A stretch of DNA of 45,504 nucleotides, from positions 1 to 45,504 of the forward strand of contig SXID01000113.1 of NCBI GenBank assembly GCA_005772955.1. Direction: 5' to 3'. Made by a program: the position numbers and the translations under genes. Position 1 is the stretch's first letter; each line of letters starts with the position of its first letter. This document shows, one piece after another, positions 2,849 to 43,880 of the stretch. The DNA comes from Planctomycetia bacterium. Its GTDB lineage: Bacteria > Planctomycetota > Planctomycetia > Gemmatales > Gemmataceae. The notes below the pieces were generated by a model. The model saw nothing but the letters and a program-made list of their open reading frames with translations. It was not told the DNA's origin and searched no databases.

Positions 2849-3029
2849 TTCACCCCGAAGGGGTGGGACAATGTAGCCTGGGGCAACGCCCCAAGTTCGC
2901 AGTATCACTGTTTTCCAGGCTGAAGGCCCGGGACAGCGAGCGTGTCGCAGACCTTCAGCCTGCCGATCCTTGTGGACCGCGTCCTGGGGCGTTGCCCCAG
3001 GCTACGTTATCCCACCCCTTTCGGGGTGA
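2849..3029. repeat. Large inverted repeat between sigma factor and kinase genes
   Basis: The left arm (2849-2893) and right arm (2984-3029) are about 45 bases each and complementary with only a few mismatches. Each arm carries the motif GCCTGGGGCAACGCCCCA and an outer TTCACCCCGAA end. A second, inner pair (CAGGCTGAAGG near 2916 and CCTTCAGCCTG near 2952) stacks within the loop. The whole region could fold into a long cruciform or RNA hairpin in the sigma-kinase intergenic space. A related element occurs at 38626-38793, so this is a dispersed family. It does not look like a simple rho-independent terminator because no U run follows. Confidence 0.85.
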
Positions 3030-4687: not shown

Positions 4688-4746
4688 AGCCGCTTGCGGC
4701 TTCGCGAGTCGCGCCGGTGGTGCCACTCGCGAAGCCGCAAGCGGCT
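4688..4746. terminator. Perfect 22-bp inverted repeat at convergent gene ends
   Basis: The arms 4688-4709 and 4725-4746 match perfectly over 22 bp with a 15-base loop. The element lies between two converging stop codons (4662 plus strand, 4749 minus strand), so it can act as a terminator for both. The right end reads GCGGCTCGTTA, close to the GACGAGCCG edge shared by other hairpins in this window. A short A run precedes the left arm. Confidence 0.75.
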
Positions 4747-14874: not shown

Positions 14875-14934
14875 GACGAGCCGGAAGCGTAAGCGACGGA
14901 CTTGCTTGTCCGTCGCTTACGCTTCCGGCTCGTC
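14875..14934. terminator. Perfect 27-bp inverted repeat, GACGAGCCG family
   Basis: The arms 14875-14901 and 14908-14934 are perfectly complementary over 27 bp around a 6-base loop (TTGCTT). The outer ends read GACGAGCCGGAAGCG. It lies 10 bases past the hutH stop and before yebC, so it should terminate hutH. Its closest relative is the hairpin at 21196-21261. The two differ at base pairs where both arms have changed together. Confidence 0.85.
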
Positions 14935-14943
14935 GAAACAACC

Positions 14944-16434
14944 TTACAACCCGGCTGCGTCGAGCAGCGCGCGGCCGTCGAGCAACTCCGCGATGCGCCG
15001 CAAATCGTCCTGGAACAGGTAGTCGGCTTCGTGGTGCACGGTGACGGCCCGCACGCGTCGGTGCGCCGCTTCCACACCGCGACCCGGGCGCAGCGGCAAC
15101 CGGTAATCGAGCGCCTGCGCCGAGGTCAGCAGCTCGATCGCCAATACCGTTTCCACGTTCTTCAGCACCATCAACAGCTTCACCGCCGAAATGCTCCCCA
15201 TGCTCACGTGGTCTTCCTGACCCAGACTCGTCGGGATCGAATCGACGCTCGCCGGGTGGCACAACACCTTGTTCTCGCTCACCAAAGCCGCGGCCGTGTA
15301 CTGCGGAATCATGAACCCGGAGTTGAGGCCGGTTTCACGCATCAACAACTTCGGTAAGCCGTCGTGACCTTCAAGCATGAGGTAGATGCGTCGCTCGGAG
15401 ATGCTCGCGTACTCGGCCAGCGCAATCGCGGCGAAGTCGAGCGCCAGCGCGAGCGGTTGGCCGTGGAAGTTCCCGCCGCTCACGATGTCGCCGTTCTCGA
15501 ACACCAACGGGTTGTCGGTCACACTGTTGATCTCGGTTTCGAGTACGCCGGTTGCGTATGCAAGCGCGTCGCGGCTCGCACCGTGAACCTGTGGCACGCA
15601 CCGCAGGCAGTACGGATCTTGCACCTTCCCGCAGTTCCGGTGTGATTCCAGAATCGCGCTTTCCTGTAACAAGAATCGCACATTGGTCGCGACCACACCG
15701 TGGCCGGGGTGTGGCCGGATCGCGTGGATGCGCGCGTCGAACGGCTTGATGCTCCCTTGCATCGCTTCGAGCGACATCGCCGCCGCGATGTCGAAGAGGT
15801 CAACGAGCCGCGAACAGCGTTCCAGAATCCACGCCCCGTAAGCGGCCATGAGCTGCGTGCCGTTGATGAGCGCCAGCCCGTCTTTCGCCGCGAGCGCGAC
15901 CGGCGGAAGCTCGTGCGCGCGGAGCACGTCGGCCGCGGGAGTTTTTCCTTTCCGGTCGTCGTTCCAGAACTCGCCGAGACCGATGAGCGGCAGACACAGG
16001 TGCGCGAGCGGGGCCAGATCGCCGCTCGCGCCGACGCTTCCGCGACTCGGAACCACGGGCACCAGGTTCGCGCGGTCGAACTCGATGAGCCGCCGGAACA
16101 CCGGCAGCGACACACCGGAGTAGCCCAGTCCCAACGCGTGAACCTTCAGCCGCAGCATGAGCCGCGAAATCTCCGGCGGCACCGGTTCGCCGACGCCGAC
16201 CGCGTGACTCAGCAGTAAGTTCCGCTGTAGGGTCGCGAGGTGTTCGTCGGGCACGCGCTTGTTCGCGAGCGCGCCGAACCCGGTGTTGATGCCGTAGTGC
16301 GGCAGCCCGTCCGCGATCGCCGCCTCCACGCGCGTACGGCTCGCTTCGACCGCGGACGTATCGCGGGCAAAATGTTCGACGCTCTTCGCGAGGTCGGCGT
16401 GTAAGTTACGAACGGTGATGTGCGGCGCGCTCAT
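14944..16434 (-). CDS. hutH: Histidine ammonia-lyase
   Basis: A 496-residue member of the MIO-dependent aromatic amino acid lyases. It would convert L-histidine to urocanate and ammonia in the cytoplasm. The MIO cofactor forms from A136-S137-G138 (GSVGASGDLAPLAHL). The catalytic tyrosine is Y47 in YGINTGFG. LLLSHAVGVG carries the Ser-His pair typical of histidine rather than tyrosine or phenylalanine lyases. Length fits the family (about 500). The start at 16434 is preferred by alignment to the usual N-terminus; ATG at 16449 is also possible, adding five residues. hutU and hutI are not in the window; a secreted N-formylglutamate-amidohydrolase-like gene lies 5 kb away on the same strand, with unrelated genes between. 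It is divergent from the TIGR01777 gene. Confidence 0.94.
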   Translation of the reverse strand: MSAPHITVRNLHADLAKSVEHFARDTSAVEASRTRVEAAIADGLPHYGINTGFGALANKRVPDEHLATLQRNLLLSHAVGVGEPVPPEISRLMLRLKVHALGLGYSGVSLPVFRRLIEFDRANLVPVVPSRGSVGASGDLAPLAHLCLPLIGLGEFWNDDRKGKTPAADVLRAHELPPVALAAKDGLALINGTQLMAAYGAWILERCSRLVDLFDIAAAMSLEAMQGSIKPFDARIHAIRPHPGHGVVATNVRFLLQESAILESHRNCGKVQDPYCLRCVPQVHGASRDALAYATGVLETEINSVTDNPLVFENGDIVSGGNFHGQPLALALDFAAIALAEYASISERRIYLMLEGHDGLPKLLMRETGLNSGFMIPQYTAAALVSENKVLCHPASVDSIPTSLGQEDHVSMGSISAVKLLMVLKNVETVLAIELLTSAQALDYRLPLRPGRGVEAAHRRVRAVTVHHEADYLFQDDLRRIAELLDGRALLDAAGL

Positions 16435-20884: not shown

Positions 20885-21189
20885 TGAGTACCGCGCCCGA
20901 GAAGATTGTGCTACCCACGCGCCGGCTCGACCCGGCCGTGGTGGAACTGCTCCGCGCGCTGAAGCCCGGCGACAAGGTCAAGATCACGCAGACGGTGCGT
21001 GTGGGTGCGAAGAAGTGGACCGCCGAAGCGACGGGCGAGTTCCGCGGCCTCGCGTATCTGCAAACTGGCGTCACTACGGAACGTGTCAAGGAAGACGATC
21101 TGGTGGTGCCCGTCGTCCGCTTCACCAAGCCCAACGGCGAACTCACCTCGATCAGCCTCGACGAGCACACCAAGGTCGAACGCGGTTGA
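20884..21189 (+). CDS. Small protein coupled to ilvN, unknown function
   Basis: A 101-residue protein that overlaps the ilvN stop by one base (TGATG). No known domain is recognised. The sequence is beta-rich (DKVKITQTVRVGAKKWTAEATGEF, then TKPNGELTSISLDEHTKVE), suggesting a small barrel or SH3-like fold. It has no signal peptide or membrane segment. GGAGG lies about 10 bases before its ATG. The overlap implies co-translation with ilvN, so a link to branched-chain amino acid synthesis is possible, but this is only context. Confidence 0.8.
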   Translation: MSTAPEKIVLPTRRLDPAVVELLRALKPGDKVKITQTVRVGAKKWTAEATGEFRGLAYLQTGVTTERVKEDDLVVPVVRFTKPNGELTSISLDEHTKVERG

Positions 21190-21195
21190 AGTGTA

Positions 21196-21261
21196 TTTGA
21201 CGAGCCGGAAGCGAAAGTGACGGACAACCTCGTCCGTCACTTTCGCTTCCGGCTCGTCAAA
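21196..21261. terminator. Perfect 30-bp inverted repeat, GACGAGCCG family
   Basis: The arms 21196-21225 and 21232-21261 are perfectly complementary over 30 bp around the loop AACCTC. It lies between the plus-strand stop at 21189 and the minus-strand stop at 21273, so it can serve both. Its edge TTTGACGAGCCGGAAGCG matches the hairpin at 14875-14934, with two internal differences changed in both arms. Confidence 0.85.
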
Positions 21262-21272
21262 TGTAACCAACC

Positions 21273-28393: not shown

Positions 28394-30397
28394 ATGCCAC
28401 CAGTCCCGGCCGCTGAAAGCGGCACCTACCGAGCGTACACGAAACAGGCCGGCTCCGAGCCGCTGCCGGGCTACCGGTTGCTTTCCCCACTCGGGCGCGG
28501 TGGGTTCGGTGAAGTCTGGAAGTGCGAAGCACCCGGCGGGCTGCACAAGGCTATCAAGTTCGTTTCGTCCGACGCCGAAGACGGGCGCGGTGGCGAGCGG
28601 TTCGGTCAGGAACTCGCCGCGTTCGAGCAGATTAAAGCAATCCGCCACCCGTTCCTGCTCACCCTCGAACGCGTCGAACAACTCGACGGCGAACTCGTGA
28701 TGGTGATGGAACTCGCTGACCGGCAACTTCAGGACCGGTTCCGCGAGTGCCGCGCTTGCGGGCTGCCCGGGATTCCCCGAGACGAACTGCTTGCGTATTT
28801 CGCCGACGCCGCCGAAGCGCTTGACGTGATCTCCGGGAAGTTCGGCCTTCAACACCTCGATGTCAAACCGGCTAACCTGTTCCTCGTGTCCGGGCACGTG
28901 AAAGTTGGCGACTACGGTCTCATCGCACAACTCGAAGGGCCAAACACCGTGAATCGCGGGCTGACGCCCCGCTATGTCGCACCGGAAGTTCTCCACGGCA
29001 CACCGAGCAGTTGCTCCGACCAGTACAGCCTCTCGCTCGTGTACCATGAGTTGCTCACCGGCGACTTCCCGTACTTGGGGCGCACACCGCAACAGTTGAT
29101 GCTTCAGCACGTCTCGACTCAGCCGAACCTTGTGGGGTTGCCGCTGGCCGACCAGTTGGTTGTCGCGAAGGCTCTGTCGAAGAAACCGGAGGATCGGTTC
29201 CCGTCGTGCCTTGCGTTCGTGCAGGCTCTCATGGTAGCCGAGAGCGTGACTGCGATTCCGAACGTCGGGATGAACATCCGCCGCGCGCGGGTCGATCGGT
29301 CCGTGGCCGAGATGAATGTCGGCGGTCAGGATGAGCCTGCCGGTGATGCTTCGTCGGTTGTCGAGCAGTCCACGTCGATGCGCACACCCGGCCGTAGTCA
29401 CTCTGGTGTGCCGACCCAGAACTGCATGTCCCCGGCGAAGCCATACCTGACGGTGCCAGACACGAACCGCGGCGCGCTCCCGGCGCTGGTACCCGCCGTG
29501 CGCAAGAGCCAATTCCCATCCGACCCGCGGCGCGATTCTGGCCCCGTCGTCACCCCGCTCCCCCGGATGATCGAGACGCCAGCCCCGTTCATCGACGACG
29601 TTGCGGCCGGGCGGGTGCTGCTGCAACAAATCCGTTCCGTTGTCCCGGTTGGCCTGCTGCTCGGTATGGAGTCCGACGAACTGCCGCTGGACCCGCAGTC
29701 GTTTGCCGAGGCGGTGGTGGCCGCGGCCGCTGGCGGAGGGTACGTGCCGCACATTCCCGGCGACTTGGGCCGACTCGCGGACGGCGGGTGGGTGTGCCAG
29801 TTCCCTTCGACTGTGCCCGCGGCGGTGGTGCCGCTCAAGTTGAGCGTGATCGGCGAACAGTGGGGCGTGTCGGTGGAACAACCGGAGCCGACCCGGCTCC
29901 TGTTGAAGCGCAACGCGGGCGGCGGCGGGCTATTCGGCGGCAAGAAGTTTGGGTTCGAGGTGACGATCTCGCTGTCAGCGACCAGGCGTGCGGTGGGCGA
30001 GGTAACGGCGGCGGTGCGGCTGTTCGGAACTCCCGACCAGAAGTTCGCACGCGACGCGCAAGACCTGATGCCGAAGTTGTTGGCCGACGTGAGAACACAA
30101 CTGGGGAATGTGCAGGACCGACGGCGCAGTCCGCGGGTCGCGTGGAACACCGCGATCACCTTGTATCCGGTTCACAGTGACGGCAGCATTGACACCGCGG
30201 TCCCGACCTGGTGCCGCGACGTGTCGGTCGGCGGGCTTGGGTTCGTCGTCGCCGCGCCACTCCCGACCAAGTACGTGTATGTCGCGTTCCCCGGCGCCAC
30301 CGCGACCGCCGGCCAGGCAGTTCTGACGCGGCTCATGCGAGTCCGGTCTTCGATTCGCGAATCCGTCTACGGCGGCCAGTATCGCACCGACCTTTAG
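28394..30397 (+). CDS. Ser/Thr protein kinase fused to a C-terminal PilZ domain
   Basis: A 667-residue protein. The kinase domain (about 27-290) has GRGGFGEVW, K55 (KAIKF) and the catalytic motifs written as HLDVKPANL (H154, D156, N161) and DYG (173-175) instead of HRD and DFG. The catalytic aspartates are kept, so activity is likely though the HRD arginine is lost. A disordered linker follows, then an unnamed domain (about 400-570) with SxSxTRRAVGEV-type strands. The last 92 residues fit a PilZ domain: R577-x(3)-R581 (RRSPR) and D609-x-S611-x-x-G614 (DVSVGG), the signature that binds cyclic di-GMP. No membrane segment is visible, so it is cytoplasmic. A c-di-GMP-switched kinase is the natural reading. 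The ATG at 28394 is chosen; a TTG at 28379 is possible. Confidence 0.87.
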   Translation: MPPVPAAESGTYRAYTKQAGSEPLPGYRLLSPLGRGGFGEVWKCEAPGGLHKAIKFVSSDAEDGRGGERFGQELAAFEQIKAIRHPFLLTLERVEQLDGELVMVMELADRQLQDRFRECRACGLPGIPRDELLAYFADAAEALDVISGKFGLQHLDVKPANLFLVSGHVKVGDYGLIAQLEGPNTVNRGLTPRYVAPEVLHGTPSSCSDQYSLSLVYHELLTGDFPYLGRTPQQLMLQHVSTQPNLVGLPLADQLVVAKALSKKPEDRFPSCLAFVQALMVAESVTAIPNVGMNIRRARVDRSVAEMNVGGQDEPAGDASSVVEQSTSMRTPGRSHSGVPTQNCMSPAKPYLTVPDTNRGALPALVPAVRKSQFPSDPRRDSGPVVTPLPRMIETPAPFIDDVAAGRVLLQQIRSVVPVGLLLGMESDELPLDPQSFAEAVVAAAAGGGYVPHIPGDLGRLADGGWVCQFPSTVPAAVVPLKLSVIGEQWGVSVEQPEPTRLLLKRNAGGGGLFGGKKFGFEVTISLSATRRAVGEVTAAVRLFGTPDQKFARDAQDLMPKLLADVRTQLGNVQDRRRSPRVAWNTAITLYPVHSDGSIDTAVPTWCRDVSVGGLGFVVAAPLPTKYVYVAFPGATATAGQAVLTRLMRVRSSIRESVYGGQYRTDL

Positions 30398-30406
30398 ATC
30401 GTAGTT

Positions 30407-30606
30407 CTCACGCTTCGCGTGAGGAACCACTCACCTTGGCTTAGAGCGCTTTCCGGAAATGCGTAGCACCTCAACGAACCGCGACCGCAAGGGAGCGGCA
30501 AAGCTCAACCACTCCCTTGCGGTCGCGGCTCGTCGTTAAACAACGCTACACCGTTCCCAAACGCGCTCTAGCATCAGTGGCGTCTGGACCTCACGCGGAG
30601 CGTGAG
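30407..30606. repeat. Nested palindromes between convergent genes
   Basis: Two small hairpins bracket the region: CTCACGC-TTC-GCGTGAG at 30407-30423 and CTCACGC-GGA-GCGTGAG at 30590-30606. Inside them lie outer, imperfect arms (about 30438-30467 and 30545-30572, sharing TTAGAGCG/CGCTCTA and GCGTAGC/GCTAC). In the centre is a perfect 17-bp hairpin, arms 30479-30495 and 30512-30528 (CCGCGACCGCAAGGGAG), with CGGCTCGTCGTT just after the right arm. The whole sits between two converging genes (stops at 30397 and 30625) and could end both transcripts. Layers this regular suggest a composite of several repeat units. Confidence 0.75.
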
Positions 30607-32338: not shown

Positions 32339-32380
32339 GGGCGCACCTCGGGAAAAAGGATGTGGTGATTGTACTGACGA

Positions 32381-32419
32381 GCCGCCCGTGGCTTCGCAAT
32401 CCGCGAAGCCGCAAGCGGC
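32381..32419 (-). terminator. Imperfect hairpin after the alpha/beta hydrolase gene
   Basis: The arms 32381-32397 and 32403-32419 pair over 17 bases with three mismatches. The left arm is preceded by TGAC so that the edge reads TGACGAGCCG, as in the other family members. It stands 7 bases past the hydrolase stop. Confidence 0.6.
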
Positions 32420-32425
32420 CTGACG

Positions 32426-33511
32426 TCACTTCAGCCACCTCACGCAGAACTCGATCGCGGCTTTGCGGTCGTCATCGGTGACCTTGTGACCAACACCCGC
32501 GTTCACGCGAACCACCAATCTATCCTTCGCGCCGATTTTCGCGAAGGCGTCTTCGGCCGCCTTGATCGCGATCTTGGCACCCTCCACAGGGCAGTTTCCG
32601 TCCATGTCGCCGTTCGCGATGAACAGCGCGCGCGCGCCGGTCGCGAACAGCGGCAACAGGTTCGGGCAGTCGTAGTCGTCGAGAATGCCGGGAATTACCT
32701 TCGACCACAGTTCGCGACACACCTTCTTATTCACTACCGGTTCGCCGATGTCCTTCGCGGCGGTTTCGTGCGCGGCTTTGATGGTGTTCGCGCGGCCCTG
32801 CCATTTGTCGTTTTCGAGGCTCCACTTGAAACTCTGCACGCCAATTAGCGGGGCCGCGACGGTGACGCGATCGTCCACCGACGCCGCGAGCCACGTCTGG
32901 ATACCGCCCATGCTGATGCCCATCATGCCGATGTGCTTCGCGTCGATGTCGTCGCGCTTCGCCAGAACATCGACGAGCCGCCACAGATCCCAAACGGTGT
33001 CGTAGTAGAACGGGTGTTCCATCGGCTTGCCTGCGGGCGTCTGCCACGCTTTCGTGATGGCCGCGACGTAGGCCGTCGAACCCTTCCCCGCGTTCGCGCG
33101 CCCGCCGTGATAGCGTGCGTCGATCGCGATGCCGATCACCCCGAGCTTCGCGAAGTCTTCGAGCCACGACTGCACGCCGTCCTTGCTCCCGCCGGTGCCG
33201 TGCAGCACGATCATCACCGGTAACTTGCCCTTCGCTCCGGCGGGCGAAACCATCAGCACCGGCACGCGCTCGACCACGCCGTCTTTCTTCTCGCTCACGA
33301 ACGACCAGCGCGAGTACACCAGTTTCCCCTTCTCGACTGGCTTCGCGTCCTCGGTCACCTCGGCCGCCACTTTCGGCCGGTCGAGCAACTTGAGGAATGC
33401 GGTCTTCGCCTTTTCCGGCGTGAGCAGTTCGGCACTCTGGGCGAGCGGGGGGCATAAACCTCCTGCTAGTACGACAAAGAAAGCAACAACAAGCAGGCGA
33501 ACATGGAACAT
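32426..33511 (-). CDS. Secreted alpha/beta hydrolase
   Basis: A 361-residue exported esterase- or peptidase-like enzyme. The signal peptide is about 1-26 (ending AQSAE). The nucleophile is S200 in GISMGG; HGTGG (104-108) supplies the oxyanion hole; the acid is probably D302 or D304 in NGDMDGNCP and the base H342 in VGHKVT. This layout is that of dienelactone-hydrolase-like or acetyl-xylan-esterase-like proteins, which cleave ester bonds; the substrate is unknown. AGGAA about 8 bases upstream supports the start at 33511. It is divergent from the AsmA-like gene, across a 300-base gap with a palindromic element and a promoter. Confidence 0.88.
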   Translation of the reverse strand: MFHVRLLVVAFFVVLAGGLCPPLAQSAELLTPEKAKTAFLKLLDRPKVAAEVTEDAKPVEKGKLVYSRWSFVSEKKDGVVERVPVLMVSPAGAKGKLPVMIVLHGTGGSKDGVQSWLEDFAKLGVIGIAIDARYHGGRANAGKGSTAYVAAITKAWQTPAGKPMEHPFYYDTVWDLWRLVDVLAKRDDIDAKHIGMMGISMGGIQTWLAASVDDRVTVAAPLIGVQSFKWSLENDKWQGRANTIKAAHETAAKDIGEPVVNKKVCRELWSKVIPGILDDYDCPNLLPLFATGARALFIANGDMDGNCPVEGAKIAIKAAEDAFAKIGAKDRLVVRVNAGVGHKVTDDDRKAAIEFCVRWLK

Positions 33512-33557
33512 GGAAGATTCCTGAACGGGGTGAGGCGTTAAGCGGCAGGTGTTTTCA

Positions 33558-33620
33558 GCCCTCGGAGAGGGCGGCGGATGGTAGCCAGGGGTGGAGCGGG
33601 TCCTCGAGCGCAACCCCTGG
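33558..33620. repeat. Two-hairpin palindromic element
   Basis: The first hairpin is GCCCTC-GGA-GAGGGC (33558-33572). The second pairs CCAGGGGT (33585-33592) with ACCCCTGG (33613-33620). Together with the flanks (GTTTTCA before, GGATGGTAG between) they resemble a dispersed element I recall from other planctomycete genomes; that is memory, not a search result. Confidence 0.6.
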
Positions 33621-37249: not shown

Positions 37250-37252
37250 CGG

Positions 37253-37348
37253 GAGAGTTGCGAGTCGCGAGTTGCGAGTTGCGAGCCGAACACAAAGCAG
37301 CGTCTCTGTTTTCGGCTCGTCACTCGCAACTCGTCACTCGCAACTCTC
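37253..37348. repeat. Inverted repeat with GAGTTGC heptamers before the LptF/G gene
   Basis: The left arm (37253-37290) contains several near-copies of GAGTTGCGAGT, and the right arm (37311-37348) their complement, with CGGCTCGTCAC at the inner edge. Heptamer-based arms of this kind can slip, so the copy number may vary. It fills the space between the AsmA-like stop and the LptF/G gene. Confidence 0.75.
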
Positions 37349-37374
37349 CTCGCCACAGGCGAGGAGAATGCGTG
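37347..37374 (+). promoter_or_regulatory. Hairpin that covers the ribosome binding site of the LptF/G gene
   Basis: TCCTCGCC (37347-37354) pairs with GGCGAGGA (37358-37365) around ACA. The right arm contains most of the Shine-Dalgarno sequence GAGGAG (37361-37366) of the GTG start at 37372. When folded, it would hide the site from the ribosome. It could tune expression or respond to translation of the upstream gene; nothing shows a ligand or trigger. Confidence 0.5.
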
Positions 37375-38625: not shown

Positions 38626-38793
38626 TTCGCCCTGAAGGGGCGGGACAGCATAGCCCAGGGCAACGCCCTGGGTACGAAGATCGGGATTTGTAGGCTGAAA
38701 GCCTGCGACAGGTGGCGTTGTCGCACCCCTTCAGGGTGCCAAGACAACGACGCACGAGCCCAGGGCTAAGTTGTCCTGCCCCTTCAGGGCGAA
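38626..38793. repeat. Large inverted repeat after the LptF/G gene
   Basis: The arms 38626-38661 and 38758-38793 pair over 36 bases with a few mismatches, and begin TTCGCCCTGAAGGGGC. The inner part includes AGGCTGAAAGCCTG near 38692 and GGGCAACGCCCTGGG, as in the element at 2849-3029. It lies between the convergent LptF/G and FKBP genes (stops at 38607 and 38820) and may end both transcripts. Confidence 0.82.
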
Positions 38794-39194: not shown

Positions 39195-39209
39195 TGGTGT
39201 TCTCCTCTT

Positions 39210-39292
39210 GTAGGGTGGGTCAAGGCTTTGCGCAGGCCCACCGTGCCTTTGGTCGCGCTGGTGGGCCTGCGCAAAGCCTTGACCCACCCTAC
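39210..39292. repeat. Perfect 33-bp inverted repeat
   Basis: The arms 39210-39242 and 39260-39292 are identical in complement over all 33 bases, around a 17-base loop. The edge reads GTAGGGTGGGTCAAGG. Elements with a similar GTAGGGTGGG start are widespread in bacteria, by my recall. It lies past the DUF4340 stop (39310) and before the FKBP start, so it probably terminates the former. Confidence 0.85.
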
Positions 39293-39309
39293 AAGAATAC
39301 GGATTTCGT

Positions 39310-43752: not shown

Positions 43753-43853
43753 GGGCAGTCACCAACGGGTTGCCGGTGCATTCAGCGATGGACGGGAGCA
43801 GAGACGCTACCGGAGCGTATTGTAGGGCCGGGCGCCTCGACACGGACAGCGTT

Positions 43854-43880
43854 GTCCGTCGCGGACGCTTCCGGCTCGTC
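43854..43880. repeat. Decayed half of a GACGAGCCG-family hairpin
   Basis: These 27 bases match the right arm of the hairpin at 14908-14934 with only two differences. The opposite arm is not intact; a degraded trace lies near 43825-43847. A short CGGACA-GCGT-TGTCCG hairpin (43843-43858) overlaps the start. It looks like a decayed copy with one good arm. Confidence 0.7.

Follow-up and report, generated by a model that had tools for sequence, protein, structure and literature searches.

The REPINs of Pseudomonas fluorescens SBW25 carry a foot of the GTAG type. In the account of Bertels and Rainey (2011; PMC3116915), each consists of two inverted REPs and a spacer in a long hairpin with compensatory changes on both sides, and for the RAYT/REP pairs of Stenotrophomonas, Nunvar et al. 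(2010; PMC2817692) describe a transposase, with an NP(L/V)(R/K)xG motif, flanked by inverted REPs with a GT(A/G)G head that co-diverge with the enzyme and show complementary mutations. Di Nocera et al. (2013; PMC3733652) present GTAG REPs, CGTC REPs and TIRtrons as multi-copy palindromes situated mostly after genes (a location already known, then, for REPs); the GTAG families, with a 5' GTAG/GTGG foot, have repeat-specific transposases, and the CGTC REPs have an unpaired CGTC tag, a stem of 8-9 bp and no associated transposase; longer palindromes contain some of the REP dimers. Finally, the class 3 TnpA_Y1 of Quentin et al. (2018; PMC6006769), mainly from Planctomycetes, were described from a set of 10 sequences that was then extended to 24, the experimental work being left to other groups; as presented there, they combine HuH and Y----Q motifs with atypical flanking hairpins, sometimes multi-copy, whose tetranucleotide foot is CnGA. 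Within the collection of papers searched, a REP-associated tyrosine transposase together with Gemmata gave no paper.

Here we analyse a window of 45,504 nucleotides (positions 1 to 45,504 of contig SXID01000113.1, assembly GCA_005772955.1, from a Planctomycetia bacterium of the Gemmataceae, probably Gemmata-like), in which two hairpins belong to a dispersed repeat family, called below the GGAAGCG family. We think it very probable that these hairpins are REPINs, that is, non-autonomous mobile elements made of two inverted REPs in one palindrome of 27-31 bp and moved by a TnpA_Y1 of class-3 type. The REPIN family would be new but its kind known, with ties to a little-known class of transposase and probably no enzyme of its own in this genome. 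With the SBW25 REPINs, as described, it shares the two inverted REPs and spacer in a long hairpin and the compensatory changes on both sides (PMC3116915); unlike theirs, the foot is a different one and the transposase, by motif, is of another class. Like the GTAG and CGTC REPs and the TIRtrons, the copies are multi-copy palindromes lying mostly after genes. GTAG itself is absent, the foot being ACGA, which sets them apart from GTAG REPs; from the CGTC REPs, in the description available, they differ in that the terminal CGTC is paired within the 27-bp stem, in stem and loop, and in the presence of an associated transposase (PMC3733652). As in the Stenotrophomonas pairs, the transposase is flanked by inverted REPs that co-diverge with it, with complementary mutations, but the GT(A/G)G head and NP(L/V)(R/K)xG motif reported for those pairs are not seen here (PMC2817692).

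Copy 1 (14875-14934) is a perfect 27-bp inverted repeat, with arms at 14875-14901 and 14908-14934 around a 6-nt spacer, its foot ACGA at 14876-14879 and its tetraloop GTAA at 14889-14892; it stands 9 nt past the stop of a called gene (14944..16434, minus strand). Copy 2 (21195-21262) has arms at 21199-21225 and 21232-21258 and the tetraloop GAAA at 21213-21216, and lies between two called genes that converge on it, their stops being at 21189(+) and 21273(-); neither copy is assigned a strand. With its flank extension copy 2 is a perfect 31-bp inverted repeat (21195-21225/21232-21262), one pair longer than the 30 bp given in the preliminary description, which had the 27 bp of copy 1 right. The two copies differ at stem positions 16 (T/A) and 20 (C/T), and comparison of the inverted repeats bears out the earlier observation that both changes are mirrored in the opposite arm, neither being confined to one side; the spacer differs as well. 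Folded as DNA, the 60-mer gives a single 27-bp hairpin (-38.3 kcal/mol).

Each arm reads ACGA-G-CCG-GAA-GC-GTAA (or GAAA)-GC (GT)-GA-CGG, with a foot ACGA, an imperfect stem CCG-GAA-GC / GC-GA-CGG and a GTNA or GAAA loop, and fits the plan of the hairpins that flank the transposases discussed below, from which it follows that one difference between copies 1 and 2 is base 2 of the tetraloop and the other lies in the inner stem. Taken alone as DNA, such an arm folds weakly (-2.7 kcal/mol, z -0.01, no better than shuffles), and an arm of a sister family somewhat better (-7.4 kcal/mol, z -1.96).

That sister family is represented in the window by the REPIN at 30474-30533 (ACGAGCCGCGACCGCAAGGGAGCGG, tetraloop GCAA, strand unassigned), and the same repeat flanks a class-3-type transposase of its own elsewhere in the genome (L049, at G000:C89). 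It bears on the word GACGAGCCG, which the window contains nine times (100 shuffles average 2.12 and never reach 9; the occurrence at 32972-32980, within a called gene, is probably due to chance) and had been taken to mark a single family of hairpins. The word is exact at 32376, 30526-30534 and 37313, and at 4746 the sequence reads CGGCTCGTT, one base off. The hairpins at 4688-4746 (AGCCGCTTGCGGCTTCGC..., with this near-word at its edge) and 32376-32427 (with an exact edge word and the core GCGAAGCCGCAAGCGGC), both without assigned strand, share by eye the core of the repeat adjoining another transposase, L257, whose nearest relative is L043. The one-family reading therefore gives way to one in which GACGAGCCG marks several families and is largely a common foot. 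A further unstranded hairpin, at 37252-37349 (GAGTTGCGAG...), has a 46-nt arm with 87% complementarity and the word at 37313. The half copy announced at 43854-43880 is genuine: 43872-43880 is the edge of a truncated GGAAGCG-family copy (43842-43880, minus strand), which retains one full arm, the tip and the start of the other arm, with 90% identity over 40 columns (BLAST match plus 15-mer word). An Rfam scan gave a single match, away from copies 1 and 2: Acido-Lenti-1 (RF01687, 38.2 bits, cut-off 37) at 38628-38672 on the minus strand, a hairpin repeat of CAGGGC/TAGCC type also found at 2853-3025 and 33551-33620, and resembled by hairpins elsewhere in the window and inside the composites described below. 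Another perfect hairpin, of 37 bp, lies at 39206-39296 (TCTTGTAGGGTGGGTCAAGG...), with many similar places in the relative G470.

Genome-wide, the 15-mer edge GACGAGCCGGAAGCG is found at 33 places (reversed control, 1), and palindromes of the form GACGAGCC..GGCTCGTC number 11 (control, 1). A covariance model built from 11 copies detects at least 36 places at E <= 0.01 in the 278-contig assembly (70 matches on both strands), comprising 31 full hairpins and 5 cores inside composites; this is a lower bound since 150 of the 8246 first-look candidates were scored, and two of the places (C123:9391 and C15) look like other sub-families. The family is therefore real. On the 11 copies, stem covariation is 0.121 against a shuffled mean of 0.067 (0/500 shuffles as high) and 5 of 27 pairs are changed on both sides (1/500 as high), kinship of the copies being ignored in both figures; further pair types, however, show no excess (9 against 9.1). 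Among 61 genomes of the taxonomic family, the 24-nt arm is present in five, this one included.

At 11 places further palindromic repeats lie inside the stem of a family hairpin, forming composites that measure some 400 bp when both ends are visible, or some 180 bp in L022, and six of these places are within 370 bases of a contig end. Other palindromes are nested in this way in L002 (G000:C16:9128-9527), L004, L005 and L022; in L002, L004 and L022, for which both ends were matched, the interior begins 22 nt from one edge word and 52 nt from the other. We also observed an identical gene-end flank in two contigs (L003 in G000:C16 and L024 in G000:C199), with a family element at the contig end in one of them, reflecting either a strain mixture or a repeat-driven assembly break.

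Position was assessed with a home-made gene caller trained on 14 ORFs of the window. The 31 full copies fall in 19 tandem, 8 convergent and 2 divergent gaps, with 2 inside a called ORF, and 19 of the 31 have a called stop codon no more than 15 nt away, in agreement with the gene-end position first proposed. Under stricter selection 25 own copies remain (16 tandem, 8 convergent, 1 inside); the median stop-side gap of the tandem ones is 11 nt, and 13 of these 16 lie closer to their stop than to the start, as do 27 of 35 tandem copies in other genomes. The 83 copies there comprise 35 in tandem, 21 in convergent and 4 in divergent gaps, 5 inside an ORF, and 18 too close to an end to be classed.

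The genome itself contains eight Y1_Tnp places, six of them above the cut-off. Seven are RAYT-like ORFs with other hairpins nearby, and the eighth, L042, has no RAYT-like match; the five tested with NCBIfam reach 22-64 bits for REP_Tyr_transpos, all below the cut-off of 80. At C89, L049 has the sister-family repeat of 30474-30533 on both sides. None of the eight places is flanked by the GGAAGCG family; in L174, a broken gene fragment beside family arms is read in three frames of one strand, with stops. RAYT-like genes, which the preliminary description proposed to look for, are present, but the transposase cognate to the family is known only from relatives, and here the family looks like an orphan population whose dedicated enzyme is absent or unassembled. 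Many RAYT-like genes (L043-L049, L093-L100, L234-L274) have their own, mutually different long hairpins on one or both sides.

A search of 392 genomes of the phylum, this one included, found relatives of the enzyme at E <= 1e-10 in 51. The GGAAGCG arm lies in the flanks of five loci, from five other planctomycete genomes, with 0-2 mismatches (0/0 on the two sides in L275, L276 and L224; 2/2 in L256; 0, upstream only, in L223), whereas none of 413 control pieces from the same 77 loci comes within four mismatches of it. L256, L224 and L223 come from genomes chosen because they hold the repeat, and L275 and L276 from the phylum-wide search; L256 belongs to a genome of the window's own genus, G078 (= G471). 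In a quick tree the five cognate loci and L282, which lacks the repeat, form one clade of six rows (SH-aLRT 96), and L049, L259 and L093, with the sister repeat, fall in the enclosing set of 11 rows (support 95). More generally, upstream and downstream flanks share a repeat in 58 of 71 enzyme relatives (mismatched pairs, 2/139), four of 75 loci being left out of this and the loop counts for fused frames, and L047 and L281 (a duplicate of L049) being dropped from the tree, flank, loop and motif counts and kept among the 77 control loci.

Strong hairpins with a GNNA loop (a stem of at least 8/9 pairs, loop bases 1 and 4 being fixed by definition) occur at 29 of the 71 loci, with A as third loop base in 25, A as last foot base in 28 and a stem starting with GCC in 27. 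The five cognate loci are outside these 29 because their stems are imperfect; their foot is ACGA in four and CGGA in L256. By loop, 68 hairpins are GNNA; other loops account for 40 entries, a figure that includes both strands, and shuffled flanks gave six hairpins with any loop. The plan across loci is an nnnA foot, a GCC...GG stem and a GNNA loop. A regular expression finds HuH plus Y----Q in 74 of 75 relatives, at least one match being spurious (L223, which has His at the position of the catalytic Tyr), and Y---NP in none; it is by this motif that we assign the class. The reading frame of L223 ends, at its C-terminus, near RAGSVSDG, which is a translated REP arm. Solved structures gave no useful match for the enzyme.

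By HuH, Y----Q, occurrence in Planctomycetes and atypical flanking hairpins with a tetranucleotide foot, sometimes multi-copy, these enzymes resemble class 3 TnpA_Y1 (PMC6006769). The foot agrees only in part, since ACGA does not fit CnGA and L256 (CGGA) alone does; relative to the class as described there, the GNNA loop, the long double-arm palindrome, the gene-end position and a genome in which no cognate enzyme was found are features of the present case (PMC6006769).

We would explain the family as follows. A TnpA_Y1 of class-3 type, an HuH/tyrosine enzyme, would act on single-stranded DNA, recognising the small GNNA hairpin together with the foot, cutting nearby and pasting the unit elsewhere; copies would survive mainly directly after stop codons, and the arms would be kept alike at the DNA level by fold-back pairing and subsequent copying or mismatch repair. 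Here the C89 sister enzyme might serve the GGAAGCG family in trans. The sequences themselves show the repeats, a cognate transposase in relatives, the gene-end position and the coupling of arms, and the dispersed, REP-like family with paired changes, tied to REP-type Y1 transposases, has held up (at least 36 places, 29 of 31 full copies between called genes, two inverted REPs in each hairpin, five cognate loci). As for movement as a unit, orthologous gaps differ between species, and no base-level empty site of the GGAAGCG family was found. Several observations speak against this explanation: no own cognate was found, L223 lacks the tyrosine, the L275 match contains a stop, the foot is not CnGA, the lone arm folds weakly, and copy number does not track the enzyme. 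Across 17 genome handles, duplicates included (G471 = G078, G478 = G064, G473 = G068), enzyme presence did not predict copy number: G471, with the enzyme, has 232 words, G054 has 181 with none of its five Y1 places cognate, and the enzyme-bearing G361, G399, G070 and G075 have 16, 22, 9 and 3.

The alternative that survives best, which we consider possible but rather unlikely, is that mobile REPINs are retained since gene ends need a hairpin, with unrelated families swapping in the same slot. In the slot that follows the gene with its stop at 21189, 10 of 12 same-genus relatives (G472 and G474 among them) have a hairpin scoring >=12 at most 130 nt from the gene end, and G470 and G016 have none of that score; by the same measure, such hairpins are found at 37/106 convergent and 26/204 tandem gene ends of the window, G475 and G479 together. 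Of the ten best hairpins in this slot, not one belongs to the GGAAGCG family, and their sequences differ, those of G477 and G475 being alike; the G479 gap also contains the sister-family repeat. For the first nine relatives (8/9), the binomial probability at the convergent rate is 0.0014, a figure too kind because the species are related and the slot was chosen for holding the finding, and the gap is convergent in the three genomes checked (G475, G477 and G479). Against it, other orthologous gaps are empty in some relatives: at 30397, where the own REPIN scores 18, no counterpart of that score exists in G475 or G479 (best 10 and 4, with arms of 10 and 4 bp), and one further G475/G479 gap is likewise empty. 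Summed over the window, G475 and G479, gaps of 30-600 nt hold a hairpin of score >=12 in 18/34 convergent, 21/139 tandem and 1/45 divergent cases, whereas none of 213 coding pieces or of the mononucleotide-shuffled gaps does. These counts indicate that hairpins are common at gene ends and that their identity turns over. A stronger form, which we put forward tentatively, is that the post-stop slot may be occupied in turn by unrelated mobile hairpin families, each with its own single-strand transposase, interchangeable mobile DNA then forming gene 3' ends and the arms being identical through fold-back copying and not through selection on RNA.

Less probable still is that the hairpins are host RNA elements of the 3' end (terminators or stabilisers), pairing being kept by selection on RNA and mobility being incidental. 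The proximity to stops (19/31), the gap classes just given with no hairpin in coding pieces, and the 10/12 occupancy of the 21189 slot would all suit it. However, T-rich outward flanks are rare (1/50 own, 6/166 other), unlike in an intrinsic terminator with its T-tract directly behind the stem, a simple scan finds no terminator-like site at either hairpin, and identical arms surround transposase genes. RNA folding would also predict more G-U than A-C mismatches, and in mRNA sense we count 16 G-U, 19 A-C and 31 other in a small sample of 66, which does not favour a reading by RNA wobble; with the rare T-tracts, this makes the pairing look like a DNA-level affair and not like a classical terminator.

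Compensatory changes in REPINs have been reported before (PMC3116915; PMC2817692). In our data the arms differ by 1.40 within and 3.76 between own copies, and by 1.43 and 2.17 in the 83 copies of other genomes, with 0/2000 shuffles as low in either case, a result helped by sub-families and, in the 83, by the mixture of genomes. The free N of the GTNA loop is the same in both arms of 21 out of 25 own copies, where 9.0 would be expected, and of 61 out of 83 copies elsewhere, where 24.5 would be; since a lone REP leaves this base unpaired, recognition of lone REPs should not by itself keep the arms alike, and something acts on the whole palindrome. An orthologous copy from G470, whose flanks are 96% and 91% identical, has changes that by eye are unmirrored (two on the left arm and more close to the right arm's tip), so that decay looks gradual and perfect copies are probably young. 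The earlier phrase "selected for pairing" is accordingly not upheld: with no preference for G-U and with these unmirrored changes, DNA-level copying or repair accounts for the mirrored changes at least as well, and, once the single strand has folded, arm copying or mismatch repair may keep the two arms alike. Local template switching at imperfect inverted repeats, making perfect palindromes without transposition, would also yield arms that match better within a copy (1.40) than between copies (3.76), but it does not account for the recurrence of one 24-nt arm at dozens of places and beside transposase genes, and it is very improbable.

We return to the REPIN explanation for what it means. The family would be a new member of a kind that is known but has hardly been described, and the points of interest are the turnover of the slot and the GNNA loop. 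The five cognate loci, the sister enzyme with its sister repeat and the shared hairpin plan together provide a directly testable substrate for class 3 transposases. The mirroring of a free loop base allows arm-to-arm copying to be told apart from single-REP recognition and bears on how REPINs stay symmetrical; and if slot turnover proved general, gene 3' ends would routinely come from mobile repeats.
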